A DNA stretch of 64,000 bases from Candidatus Synechococcus calcipolaris G9 (GTDB lineage Bacteria; Cyanobacteriota; Cyanobacteriia; Thermosynechococcales; Thermosynechococcaceae): the NCBI RefSeq assembly GCF_029582805.1, contig NZ_JAKKUT010000002.1, positions 372,001 to 436,000 of the forward strand, in the 5' to 3' direction. Numbering within the stretch: the stretch's first letter is position 1; every line of letters begins with the position of its first letter. Of this stretch, positions 47,567-59,497 are shown in pieces. The position numbers were made by a program, and so were the translations under genes. The notes under the pieces were generated by a model that worked only from the letters and a program-made list of their open reading frames with translations, did not search any database and was not told where the DNA came from.

Positions 47567-50167
47567 TTAGCGATTGACTTCGGCAAATATTGGCCGTTGA
47601 ATCCCATCCGGTATTCGGTAAAGTTCCCCTCCTTGCTGGTAGATCTCATCAATGGGTTGCATTTTCCCATGGGTTGTCATGAAGCGGTGATCGGCGGTGG
47701 CCTGAATGATGCTGCCATCTTCTAGGGTATACTCAAAAACCTCCTGCCAAGCTCGACGGTGCCACTGGGCAATGGGTTGGGTGTAAATATGGCCCTGGCG
47801 ATCGCAACTATAGACCTGGCAATGGATTTGCTCATCGACAATTTTACCGAGGGGGAGGGGGCCATACTCCAGGGTCAACACCAGGGTATCCCCACTCAGA
47901 CAGTATTCGGCAAACATCACCATTTGGTTAAATAATTCCTGGGCAACTTTGGCGGGAACCCCATTTTTAGCGGAACCATCAATGAAGATTTGCTCATGCT
48001 TTTTCATTTCATCCACTTTCTTTTTCCCCATGGCCCGCCGTAGCAGATCCGCCTGCCCTAGGGAGTACCCAGCTAAATCCTGGGCCATACGCATGATTTG
48101 CTCTTGATAACAAAGGACTCCGTAAGTTTCCTGTAAAATTGGTCGAAGTAATTCGTGCTGATAATCAATCCGCTCTCGCCCATGCTTACGATTAATGAAT
48201 TTGGGGATGAGACCCGCATCCAAGGGGCCGGGGCGGTAGAGAGCCAGAACCGAAGAAATGTCCTCTAGATTGGAGGGTTTGAGTTCGCGGACAATTTGCC
48301 GCATCCCGGAGGACTCTAGCTGAAATATCCCCTCTAATTTGCCCTCTGCCAAGATATTGTAGGTCTTAGGGTCATCCATGGGTAAGCCATCTACGTCCAG
48401 ATCAAGACCCTGGGATTTTTTGACTAAATCTCGGGTGCGCTGAATCATGGTGAGATTTTTTAAGCCCAAGAAGTCCATTTTCAGTAGCCCCAGAGATTCA
48501 AGGTCTTCCATGAAATATTGGGTAATCACGGAACCATCGTTGTTTCGCTGTAGGGGGACAATTTCATCAAGGGGTTCGGAGGCAATTACAACTCCTGCGG
48601 CGTGGACACCATAGGTTTTGTTCGTGCCCTCAATTCGCATAGCCATATCAATCCAGTGGCGAACTTGGGGATCGGTATCGTATTTTTCCTTAAATTCTGG
48701 GGCCGGGGTGTCCTCGGAAATCATTACTTTAAGTTTGGTGGGTTTGCCCCGGATAATGGGGATCAATTTGGCCATGCGATCGGCATCGCCGTAGGGAATA
48801 TTCAAGACTCGGGCCACATCCTTGAGTACGGCCTTTGAGGTCATGCGGTTAAAGGTAATAATTTGGGCGACCCGATCGCTGCCATATTTTTGGGTGACGT
48901 ATTCAATGACTTCATCCCGCCGTTCAATGCAAAAATCCGTATCAATATCCGGCATGGATTTCCGTTCGGGATTCAAAAACCGTTCAAAAAGTAACCCATG
49001 GTGTACCGGATCAATATTGGTAATCCCTAGGGCGTAGGCAACCAAGGAACCGGCTGCTGATCCGCGCCCGGGCCCCACGGGAATATCATGATCGCGGGCA
49101 TATTTGATGTAATCCCAGACAACTAAAAAGTATGTGGAAAATCCCATTTCCTGGAGCATGGTAAGTTCATACTCAAGCCGCTGGGCATAGGTGGGATTAA
49201 TTTCGCTGCGATCGCCCAGACGAAGTCGATCCATGAGGCCATTCCAGGCCACCTGATCGAGGTAGGTATCAGGGGTATGCTCTGGTGGAACAGGGTAATC
49301 TGGGCTTTGGGGATCTCGGAAAATATTATAGGCTTCAACTTTTTCGGCGACTTCTAGGGTGTTGGAGATCGCCTGATCAATGATCTCCTGGGGCAAATGA
49401 TCCCGAAATAACTGGGCCATTTCTGCGGAGGATTTGAGGTATTCTGTGCCGCTATAGCGAAGGCGTTTATCTTCAGTAATTAGCTTACCAGTTTGAATAC
49501 ATAACAGGGCATCATGGGCTTCAACATCATAACAGGAAATAAAATGGGAATCATTGGTGGCAATGAGCTTAATATTGAGTTCTTGACTAATGCGAACTAA
49601 TTCCACATTGACCACTCGATCTTCCTGGGAACCGTGATCCTGAATCTCTAGATAAAAATCATCGCCGAATCGTTCCTGATACCATTGGGCGACCCGCCGT
49701 GCCACCTCTGGTTTCCCGTGCAAAATAGCTTGGGGAATCTCTCCACCTAAACAGGCACTCGTCACAATTAACCCCTGACGATATTGCTCTAGATAGTCTT
49801 TACTAATACAGGGACGAGAAAATATTCCTTTGCCCTGCATTCCCTGAAGATGGGAGAGGGAGGTTAACTTAGCTAGATTTTTATAACCCTGCTTATTTTT
49901 GGCTAATACCACCTGATGAAAGCGGGGACGGCGTTCCTGTTTGGTAATATCCCCATTGATCACATACATTTCATTGCCGACAATGGGCTTGAGGGGCTTA
50001 CCACGGCAGAGCTTCATTAATTCTACGGCTCCGTACATGACCCCATGATCCGTTAGGGCGATCGCGGGCATTCCTAGCTCCATAGCCTGTTTAACCAATT
50101 CCGGTAATTGACTTGCCCCATCTAGGAGGCTGTAGTCGCTATGGATATGAAGACCAACAAAAGACAT
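47567..50167 (-). CDS. dnaE-N: DNA polymerase III alpha subunit, N-terminal half, with split intein N-part
   Basis: The replicative polymerase is made in two pieces joined by protein trans-splicing. This gene gives 866 residues: about 755 of DnaE and 111 of intein. The start ATG 50167 ([20 protein letters not shown]) is chosen because a GTG 17 codons upstream adds a non-family leader. The PHP domain has [11 protein letters not shown] and [10 protein letters not shown]. The polymerase core has [17 protein letters not shown] and [16 protein letters not shown] (catalytic Asp). The C-half gene is not in the window. Confidence 0.97.
47570..47902 (-). other. Split intein N-fragment (DnaE family)
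   Basis: After the extein MFAEY the sequence begins with the catalytic Cys ([20 protein letters not shown]) and contains block B with [16 protein letters not shown] (T-x-x-H). It ends at the stop codon without the C-terminal His-Asn, as expected for the N-part. It parallels the Npu and Ssp DnaE split inteins over its length, about 111 residues compared with about 102 for the Npu N-part, with a slightly longer tail ([12 protein letters not shown]). Confidence 0.96.
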
Positions 50168-50273
50168 AGGGCGATCGCCATGGTGGGTAAGCATTAAGAC
50201 TAATCTACCTTGACACACCCCCCCTTAAACTGTGCGGTAAACTAAAAAACATCGCACCTAGGGAGGAAGGCGG

Positions 50274-55696: not shown

Positions 55697-58600
55697 ATGA
55701 TTCCCGGTCAATTTGAACATTACACCGAACTTTTAGCAAATTATACCGATGATTTAATTTGTATCCATGAGGCCGATGGCACCTACCTCTACCTCACCCC
55801 TTCCAGTGAATCCCTTTTGGGGTACCGCCCTGAAGAACTGGTTGGCAAAAGTCCCTACGCCCTATTTCATCCCGATGATTCGGAAAAAGTACGAACCGGT
55901 GCTCATCAGCTTTCCTTGCAGGGCGTAACCGATTTAACCATTACCTACCGCATCCGCAAAAAAAACGGTTCCTACATCTGGTTTGAAACCCTGACCCATC
56001 CCATTGCCGATGAACGCCATGAGGTCATGTTTCTGATTACCACCTCTCGGGATATTACCCAGCGCAAGCAGGTGGAGGGCCAACTCCAGGCCAGTCAGGA
56101 ATTACTGGAAGCCTTCTTTAGTCAGTCCCTAGATGGCTGTTTCTTTATGATGCTGGATCGTCCCATCAATTGGGATAACCATATTGATAAAGATGCGATC
56201 CTAAACTATGTCTTTGAGCATCAGCGGATTACCCGGGTGAATCAAGCCCTAGCCAAGCAGCATCGCTTACCCCGGGAAGAACTCCTGGGCCTAACTCCCC
56301 TGGATTGTTTTGCTGACGATTTAGGAAAGGCGCGACAATTTTGGCGGGCCCTCTTTGATCTGGGCACACTTTATACGGAGCTAGAGTTAAAGCGGCGGGA
56401 TGGGAGTTCCTTTTGGATTGAAGGGAACTATGTCTGTCTCTACGATGATCAGGGATGTATCCGGGGTCATTTTGCGGTACAGCGGGACATTACCGATCGC
56501 CGCCGGATGCAGGGACAACTCGAGCAAAAAAACCAGGAATTAGAGCTATTTTTCAACTCATCCCTCGACCTGTTTACGATCGCTGACACCGAGGGCTATT
56601 TTCATCGCCTCAACCAAGAGTGGGAAAATGTTCTCGGCTATGGTTTGGCAGAGCTAACGGGTGTCAGATTTCTTGATTTTGTTCATCCTGAGGATATTGA
56701 TCAAACAGAAGCGGCCATAGCAACGCTCAAGGAGAATAGCCCCATTCTGAACTTTAGCAATCGCTATCGCTGTAAGGATGGGAGTTATCGCTGGTTGGAA
56801 TGGCGATCGTTTCCCTTTCAAGGTTTAATTTACGCCTCTGCCCGAGATATTACAGATCAACGGAACTTTGCGCTCCGGCTAGAGACGGCCTATCGGCAAA
56901 CCAGCGAAATCCTAGAGAGTATGTCTGACAGCTTTTTTGCGGTTGATGCTGATTTTCACATTACCTATGCTAATCAACATTTTTGCGATACCTTCGCCCT
57001 AGAGAAAACGGACGTACTCGATCAAAATCTCTGGGATATATTCCCTGGCGCGGTGGGAACCATTTTTGAAGAACAGATCCAACGGGCCCTAAGGGAACAG
57101 ACGAGCGTTAAATTTGAGGCTCTTTACTCGCCCTTGGAGCGGTGGTTTAGCGTTCAAATCTATACGACACCCACCGGCCTGGCGATCTTTTTTCAAGATG
57201 TCAGCGATCGCATCAATGCCAATTTAGCCCTAGAGCGGCGCAATCAACAGGCCGAACTCCTCCTCAACCTAACCCTAGCCATTCGTCAGTCCCTCGACCT
57301 GGATGAAGTCCTGCAAACCACCCTGGATGAAATTCGCCATTTACTGGGTATCGATCGCACGATTATTTATAAATTCAATCCCGATTGGTCAGGTATTATC
57401 GCCAAGGAATCCGTAAGCCAGCATAAATTTTTACTCCTAGGGCAAGTTTTTAATGATCCCTGCTTTGGGGCGAACTACATTGAACCCTATTGCCAGGGCT
57501 GGGTTGTCGCCATTGATGATATTTATACCGCTGAGATGACCGCCTGCTACCGAGAATTTTTGGAGTCTATTCAGGTACGGGCTAACTTAGTGGTCCCGGT
57601 CATTCAGGGCGATCGCCTATGGGGGTTACTCCTGTGTCAGCATTGCACTGGGCCCCGCCCCTGGTCACAGGATGAAATCGAACTCCTGCGCCAATTGGGG
57701 GAACAACTGGGCATTGCCATTCAGCGGGCCGAGTTAGTTACTGCCCTCAACCAGGAAAAAGAACGCTATCGTCGCGTACTTGAAGCCCAAACCGAACTCC
57801 TGTATCGTTGTCGTCCCGATGGTGTGTTGACCTTTGCCAATCCGGCATTCTTCCGTTATGTGGGTTGCCAAAATGACACCTGTGAAATCGGTCATGCCTT
57901 TGAGCATCCCTTTGATCAAGTGGATCGAGATCGCTTTGCCCATCACCTCCAAGCCCTAACGATAGAGCATCCCATTCGTACCATTGAATGCAGTGTCACC
58001 TTAGCCAATGGCAGCCACCAATGGTATGAATGGACTAATCGAGCCATTTTTGATCCCCAAGGCAACTGCGTGGAGTATCAATGCCTGGGTCGAGATATTA
58101 CAAAGCAAAAAATCATTGAAGAGCGGCTGATCCATGATGCCCTCCACGATGGTTTGACGGGCCTGCCCAATCGAGTGTTGCTCACCGATCGCCTGATTCA
58201 GTGTTGGCAGCGGTATCAACGGCATCAGCGGCAAGAATTCCAACCGTCCTCAAACAAAATTGATTTACCCCCCTATGGCGATCGGTTTGCCATTATTTTC
58301 ATTGACATCGATCGCTTTAAGCGGGTGAATGATAGCTTAGGGCATCAGGCCGGTGATCAGGTTCTTGCCACCCTGGCCCAACGGATGGAAACGGCCCTGA
58401 GAGCGGGGGATACCCTGGCCCACCTCAGTGGTGATGAATTTGTCATGCTTTGCGAAGAAATCAATGATCCCCAGGAGATAGATCGCCTCGTCGAGAACCT
58501 AGAACAGGCAATCCGGCAGCCCATTCATATCAATAGTCATACCCTGACCCTGAGTGCAAGTCTGGGGGTTGCCTTTAGTGGGAAACAGTACACTCAAGCA

Positions 58601-59497
58601 GAGCACCTGCTACGGGATGCGGATATTGCCATGTATCAAGCCAAGAAAAATGGCCGGGGCAAAGCCATTGTGTTTACCCCCGATATGCACCATTACGCCC
58701 AAGCGGTCTTGAGTTTAGAAAGTGACCTGCAACGGGCGATCGCCCAAACCACAGATTTAGTAACACCAGCGGATGAACTCCAAATTTATTTTCAACCCAT
58801 TGTTCGCCTAGCAACGGGTCGCATCCAAGGCTTTGAGGCCCTCAGTCGCTGGTTTCATCCTGAGCAGGGGGAAATTTCTCCCGGTGACTTTATTGAACTG
58901 GCGGAACAAACGGGGCTGATCATTCCCCTGGGTAAAGCCATTCTTCGCCGTGCGTTGCATTTATTTGCCCAATGGTCAAAATCCCAGGCGAACGGGCAAA
59001 CCTATTCCATCAGTATTAATATTTCCCCCCAGCAGTTGACTGAACCTAGCTTTGTCAATGAAGTGGCGGCGGCCCTATCTGACACAGATATGCCCTCCAG
59101 TTGTCTCCACCTAGAAATTACCGAAACCACGATGATCCATAACTTGGATGTCACCTTGCGAGTCGCCCAACAATTGCAGAACTTGGGAGTTGGCCTCAAT
59201 ATTGATGATTTTGGCATTGGCTACTCCTCCCTGAGTCGGATCCATAGCTTACCCATTAATGCCCTCAAGATCGATCGCTCCTTTGTTTTGGGTTTAGGGG
59301 AGCATCAACCCAGTGCCGATATTGTGGCCGCAATTATTGCCCTTGGCCATAGCTTAAAACTGGAGATTATTGCTGAAGGCGTAGAAACCCTGGGCCAATG
59401 CCAGCATTTACAGGAGCTAGGCTGCACCTATGGCCAGGGATATTTCTTTTATCGCCCCGTACCCCTTGAGCAAATCCATACCCAGGAAAGAGTCTAG
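55697..59497 (+). CDS. PAS/cyanobacteriochrome GAF/GGDEF/EAL protein: predicted light-controlled c-di-GMP enzyme
   Basis: The protein has 1266 residues from ATG 55697 (MIPGQFEHYTELL); a TTG two codons earlier is possible. There are four PAS domains (about 8-500), a GAF domain (about 520-690), another PAS (about 695-815), GGDEF (about 825-1000) and EAL (about 1010-1260). The GAF has the DXCF motif of cyanobacteriochromes, DPCF (C589), and the canonical second Cys in TACYREFLESIQVRANLVVP (C617), so it probably binds phycoviolobilin or phycocyanobilin. GGDEF reads SGDEF (911-915) with an RxxD inhibitory site (RAGD) 5 residues before. EAL (from 1047), EITET, DDFGIGYSSL and KIDRSF are intact. Both synthesis and breakdown of c-di-GMP are therefore possible. 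Confidence 0.88.
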   Translation: MIPGQFEHYTELLANYTDDLICIHEADGTYLYLTPSSESLLGYRPEELVGKSPYALFHPDDSEKVRTGAHQLSLQGVTDLTITYRIRKKNGSYIWFETLTHPIADERHEVMFLITTSRDITQRKQVEGQLQASQELLEAFFSQSLDGCFFMMLDRPINWDNHIDKDAILNYVFEHQRITRVNQALAKQHRLPREELLGLTPLDCFADDLGKARQFWRALFDLGTLYTELELKRRDGSSFWIEGNYVCLYDDQGCIRGHFAVQRDITDRRRMQGQLEQKNQELELFFNSSLDLFTIADTEGYFHRLNQEWENVLGYGLAELTGVRFLDFVHPEDIDQTEAAIATLKENSPILNFSNRYRCKDGSYRWLEWRSFPFQGLIYASARDITDQRNFALRLETAYRQTSEILESMSDSFFAVDADFHITYANQHFCDTFALEKTDVLDQNLWDIFPGAVGTIFEEQIQRALREQTSVKFEALYSPLERWFSVQIYTTPTGLAIFFQDVSDRINANLALERRNQQAELLLNLTLAIRQSLDLDEVLQTTLDEIRHLLGIDRTIIYKFNPDWSGIIAKESVSQHKFLLLGQVFNDPCFGANYIEPYCQGWVVAIDDIYTAEMTACYREFLESIQVRANLVVPVIQGDRLWGLLLCQHCTGPRPWSQDEIELLRQLGEQLGIAIQRAELVTALNQEKERYRRVLEAQTELLYRCRPDGVLTFANPAFFRYVGCQNDTCEIGHAFEHPFDQVDRDRFAHHLQALTIEHPIRTIECSVTLANGSHQWYEWTNRAIFDPQGNCVEYQCLGRDITKQKIIEERLIHDALHDGLTGLPNRVLLTDRLIQCWQRYQRHQRQEFQPSSNKIDLPPYGDRFAIIFIDIDRFKRVNDSLGHQAGDQVLATLAQRMETALRAGDTLAHLSGDEFVMLCEEINDPQEIDRLVENLEQAIRQPIHINSHTLTLSASLGVAFSGKQYTQAEHLLRDADIAMYQAKKNGRGKAIVFTPDMHHYAQAVLSLESDLQRAIAQTTDLVTPADELQIYFQPIVRLATGRIQGFEALSRWFHPEQGEISPGDFIELAEQTGLIIPLGKAILRRALHLFAQWSKSQANGQTYSISINISPQQLTEPSFVNEVAAALSDTDMPSSCLHLEITETTMIHNLDVTLRVAQQLQNLGVGLNIDDFGIGYSSLSRIHSLPINALKIDRSFVLGLGEHQPSADIVAAIIALGHSLKLEIIAEGVETLGQCQHLQELGCTYGQGYFFYRPVPLEQIHTQERV

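Follow-up and report, generated by a model that had tools for sequence, protein, structure and literature searches.

Our analysis of the window, a 64,000-nucleotide stretch of the Candidatus Synechococcus calcipolaris G9 genome, confirmed an intact open reading frame (ORF) of 1266 amino acids at 55697-59497 (+), running from an ATG at 55697 to a stop codon that ends at 59497. Two codons 5' of this ATG there is a TTG, but the alignment of the orthologs begins at the ATG. Pfam detected five PAS stretches, one GAF, one GGDEF and one EAL domain in the 1266-residue protein, all scoring far over the cut-off, in the order PAS x4 - GAF - PAS - GGDEF - EAL, and a search of the whole protein against NCBIfam returned no equivalog above its cut-off.

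Domain organization and conserved motifs

The first four PAS domains occupy about residues 8-506 (55718-57214) and the GAF domain about residues 522-678 (57260-57730; Pfam GAF match at 534-675), with all features of the protein lying on the + strand. An earlier note on this DNA had placed GAF, GGDEF and EAL domains behind four PAS domains, and Pfam agrees on the four PAS N-terminal to the GAF; overlooked in that count, however, was a fifth PAS in the interval between the GAF and GGDEF domains (about residues 690-800; 57764-58096), which Pfam recognized here and which is also present in SesC ortholog L012, likewise with five PAS stretches.

The GAF domain contains two cysteines at positions of interest, C589 within a DPCF motif (residues 587-590; 57455-57466) and C617 within ACYREF, followed directly by Tyr618 (57545-57550) and then by QVRANLVVP. 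In cyanobacteriochromes a cysteine of the C617 type is named canonical and one of the C589 type the second Cys; both residues had been picked out correctly as the dual-Cys positions, but the label of second Cys, previously given to C617, belongs to C589. A phmmer comparison with the solved TePixJ structures 3vv4, 4fof and 2m7u aligned C589 and C617 exactly with both chromophore cysteines (E about 1e-15 for a 72-residue core, 1e-27 to 1e-28 for the domain), and the alignment with TePixJ and Ses GAF domains that the earlier note had proposed put the two residues at the chromophore positions. The canonical cysteine lies 28 residues after the second one, a spacing equal to that of SesA (499/527), and the SesC orthologs share both cysteines together with the DXCF-family motifs around them. 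Since both cysteines align with the bilin cysteines of TePixJ, the domain can be identified from its sequence as a DXCF cyanobacteriochrome GAF, in agreement with its matches to cyanobacteriochromes in the PDB and its position in the GAF tree described below. TePixJ (PDB 3vv4, 4fof, 4glq, 2m7u) shares the DXCF GAF fold and both chromophore cysteines, but differs in its Cys-His pair and its methyl-accepting chemotaxis output.

The output domains retain the motifs of both enzyme classes. The GGDEF domain (residues 815-988; 58139-58660) includes the sequence RAGD-TLAHL-SGDEF, with the RxxD inhibitory site at R902-x-x-D905 and SGDEF at 911; an RxxD site has also been reported in SesC (PMC5871770). 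The EAL domain (residues 1025-1254; 58769-59458), supported by Pfam and by alignment, has EAL at 1047 and all of IDDFG, LEITETT, ALKIDRSF and AEGVET, and the usual E, N, E, DD, K, E and Q residues involved in catalysis, metal binding and substrate binding are intact. The SGDEF, RxxD and EAL motifs noticed at first reading were thus all seen again, together with a Thr to Ile replacement in loop 6.

Orthology with SesC

The reference set comprised seven Thermosynechococcus-type genomes of one genus, each of 2.4-2.8 Mb, and a whole-protein search recovered a collinear full-length ortholog at 58-60% identity in every one of them. A search of contigs added three Thermosynechococcus metagenome-assembled genomes as true orthologs (56% identity over residues 1-690), and two distant PAS matches from Bacteroidota. 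The reverse search returned the 55697-59497 locus at 1629 bits, with the next match at 408, making the pair reciprocal best hits. In a tree of 84 DXCF GAF domains, the GAF of this protein grouped with SesC GAFs at a support of 100/97, and the SesA-like, SesB-like and PixJ-like GAFs of the same genome each joined their own counterparts; one neighbor in this tree, L090, is a histidine kinase and not a SesC.

The 2,593,857-bp Thermosynechococcus genome allowed these proteins to be compared with published loci. Its SesC ortholog lies at 929,128 (+), in the interval 929-933 kb, and about 11 kb later, at about 944-946 kb, comes an ORF with CBS-PAS-GAF-GGDEF layout. The same genome has a GAF of PixJ type on the minus strand at 570 kb, and at 2.08 Mb on the plus strand it encodes a GAF-GGDEF-EAL protein. 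These positions fit the numbering tlr0911 (SesC), tlr0924 (SesA), tll0569 (PixJ) and tlr1999 (SesB). With a GTG taken as start codon, the CBS-PAS-GAF-GGDEF ORF places its DXCF cysteine at position 499 and its canonical cysteine at 527, position 499 being the one published for the DXCF cysteine of Tlr0924 (PMC4067208); tlr0911 is sesC, whose ORF is able to lose 3.4 kb (PMC9090330). The nucleotide pattern TGYTTY-N51-GAYNNN-N21-TGYYAY missed SesB of this genome, which the protein search recovered.

The reciprocal best hit and the tree support of 100/97 therefore identify the protein as SesC in a sister genus, and its motifs, Pfam domains and full-length alignment are those of an ortholog of sesC (tlr0911) itself. 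The core of the first proposal, that a dual-Cys GAF sensing blue and green light is joined to GGDEF and EAL domains as in the Ses proteins, is well supported, and the assignment to SesC makes it stronger than it was first put. The same proposal held that the protein has more PAS input than the Ses proteins, which is wrong with respect to SesC: the four N-terminal PAS align without gaps with the Thermosynechococcus orthologs, save for a small gap in one (L015), and SesC has the fifth PAS as well, so that additional PAS input was ruled out by an identical set of five. A more distant relative in another genus (L016) has a longer N-terminal part.

The protein shares with SesC (Tlr0911) the succession of four PAS, DXCF GAF, PAS, GGDEF and EAL, both cysteines, SGDEF and all EAL catalytic residues. 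SesA (Tlr0924) resembles it in its DXCF GAF, Cys-Tyr pair and GGDEF output, but has N-terminal CBS and PAS domains and lacks an EAL, and is represented in this genome by a separate ortholog (L030). Similarly, SesB (Tlr1999) combines a DXCF GAF, which is Cys-Tyr in the 2,593,857-bp genome, with GGDEF and EAL domains, but lacks the PAS array and has its own ortholog here (L028).

A conserved gene neighborhood, which would be a supporting and not a defining feature of orthology, was also sought but is absent: accD and an HtrA-like protease gene flank the locus here, versus other genes in Thermosynechococcus. Elsewhere in the window, 47567-50218 (-) encodes the N-terminal part of DNA polymerase III alpha, ending in an intein-like segment after ...MFAEYC that resembles the split DnaE inteins known from cyanobacteria; in a Pfam search of this product, polymerase domains alone were matched and no intein model scored.

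Departures from SesC and their possible effects

Besides its distinct neighborhood, the protein differs from Tlr0911 in having Cys-Tyr, Trp602 and Ile1174 where SesC has Cys-His, Arg and the loop 6 Thr, and in a 16-residue insertion near residues 845-862 of the GGDEF domain that is absent from SesC orthologs. Three of these features, I1174, Trp602 and the insertion, depart from all SesC orthologs and, like the unshared neighborhood, weigh against the assignment to SesC.

The Cys-Tyr pair was ruled out as a rare variant. Of 291 cyanobacterial genomes, 98 contained a pattern of DXCF, Asp-Ile and Cys-Tyr at the observed spacing (a hand count gave 133 matches) and 213 contained DXCF with Cys-His, and reversed-pattern controls gave zero matches in the 291 genomes; the initial remark that most family members have His therefore holds to the extent that Tyr is less common, but not as an indication of rarity. 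By tree and alignment, the Cys-Tyr pair is also that of SesA and SesB in the 2,593,857-bp Thermosynechococcus genome. In the genome of Synechococcus calcipolaris, the PixJ-like chemotaxis protein (C5:157730-158833; L031, L032) has two similar tandem DXCF GAFs, both Cys-Tyr, versus one PixJ-type GAF match per Thermosynechococcus genome in a pattern search.

It is possible, but unlikely, that Tyr618, Trp602 or both shift the colors, the balance of phycocyanobilin (PCB) and phycoviolobilin (PVB), or the dark reversion relative to Thermosynechococcus SesC. Both residues are near the bilin cysteines in sequence and differ from Thermosynechococcus SesC; Trp602 (57500-57502) stands where other SesC orthologs, and most DXCF GAFs, have Arg, and Trp was found at this position in 8 of the 84 sampled GAFs, seven of the eight with Cys-Tyr, although close relatives account for four of the eight. 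However, Tlr0924 (SesA), itself a Cys-Tyr protein, has been shown to switch between blue and green with a mixture of PCB and PVB as chromophore (PMC4067208), and Tyr is thus compatible with the standard photocycle. As SesA and SesB both carry this widespread pair and SesA switches between blue and green, Tyr alone defines no new color pair; the role of Cys-Tyr as a new color tuner is weakened, and the earlier suggestion that it may tune the color pair is left unsupported. Nor does the protein stand apart at the site known to tune the D ring (Leu527 of TePixJ; PMC7504144), where it shares Leu with nearly all GAFs compared.

A second and less probable alternative is a SesC ortholog biased to one activity, in which I1174 would weaken the phosphodiesterase and light would mainly control c-di-GMP synthesis. 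Loop 6 reads DDFGIGYSS, and its Ile at residue 1174 (59216-59218, codon ATT) is shared by no other SesC ortholog examined, all of the others having Thr; across 34 loop 6 sequences of the retrieved loci, the site was Thr in 31, Met in two and Ile in this protein alone. In active EAL domains the loop is DFG(T/A)GYSS, and its glycines and phenylalanine are reported to position it (PMC2994820). These glycines and this phenylalanine are retained here, however, every direct metal, substrate and catalytic residue is intact, and Met is tolerated at this site in two other proteins here, which may or may not be active. The combination of both effects, a re-tuned SesC in which Tyr618 and Trp602 alter the photocycle and the Thr to Ile change reduces phosphodiesterase activity, which would leave the protein in this genus mainly a light-gated cyclase, appears very unlikely. 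A GAF without bilin, with the response passing through the PAS domains only, is hardly credible despite the five PAS domains of the protein, given the conservation of both cysteines and the DXCF-family motifs across orthologs and the presence of a bilin reductase in the genome.

Partner genes and proposed light response

The Synechococcus calcipolaris genome also encodes SesA-like, SesB-like and PixJ-like proteins, a ferredoxin-dependent bilin reductase and three PilZ-bearing proteins (C2:1394630, C2:98978 and C2:212242; L128-L130). The genome thus has the components of the system described in Thermosynechococcus. On our reading of their sequences, the three PilZ proteins are cellulose-synthase-like and candidate c-di-GMP effectors.

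A SesC ortholog that responds to color much as SesC does is, in our view, very probably the explanation that accounts jointly for these observations. The GAF domain would bind a PCB-derived bilin via C617, and C589 would attach reversibly to C10 of the bilin, giving blue-absorbing and green-absorbing states. SesC is bifunctional, with c-di-GMP synthesis increased in blue light and degradation increased in green light (PMC9090330, PMC5871770). The orthology and the conserved motifs make it most likely that the 55697-59497 protein has this same color dependence. Together with the SesA-like and SesB-like proteins, it would set the c-di-GMP level by light color, and by analogy with SesC this level would in turn tune phototaxis driven by type IV pili as well as aggregation, the latter via the cellulose-synthase-like enzymes with PilZ domains.

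Finding SesC in a genus other than Thermosynechococcus leaves the understanding of the system unchanged. The color-sensing c-di-GMP set of SesA, SesB and SesC, as studied in Thermosynechococcus, nevertheless extends to a sister genus within the same family, and its presence there opens the system to comparative tests.
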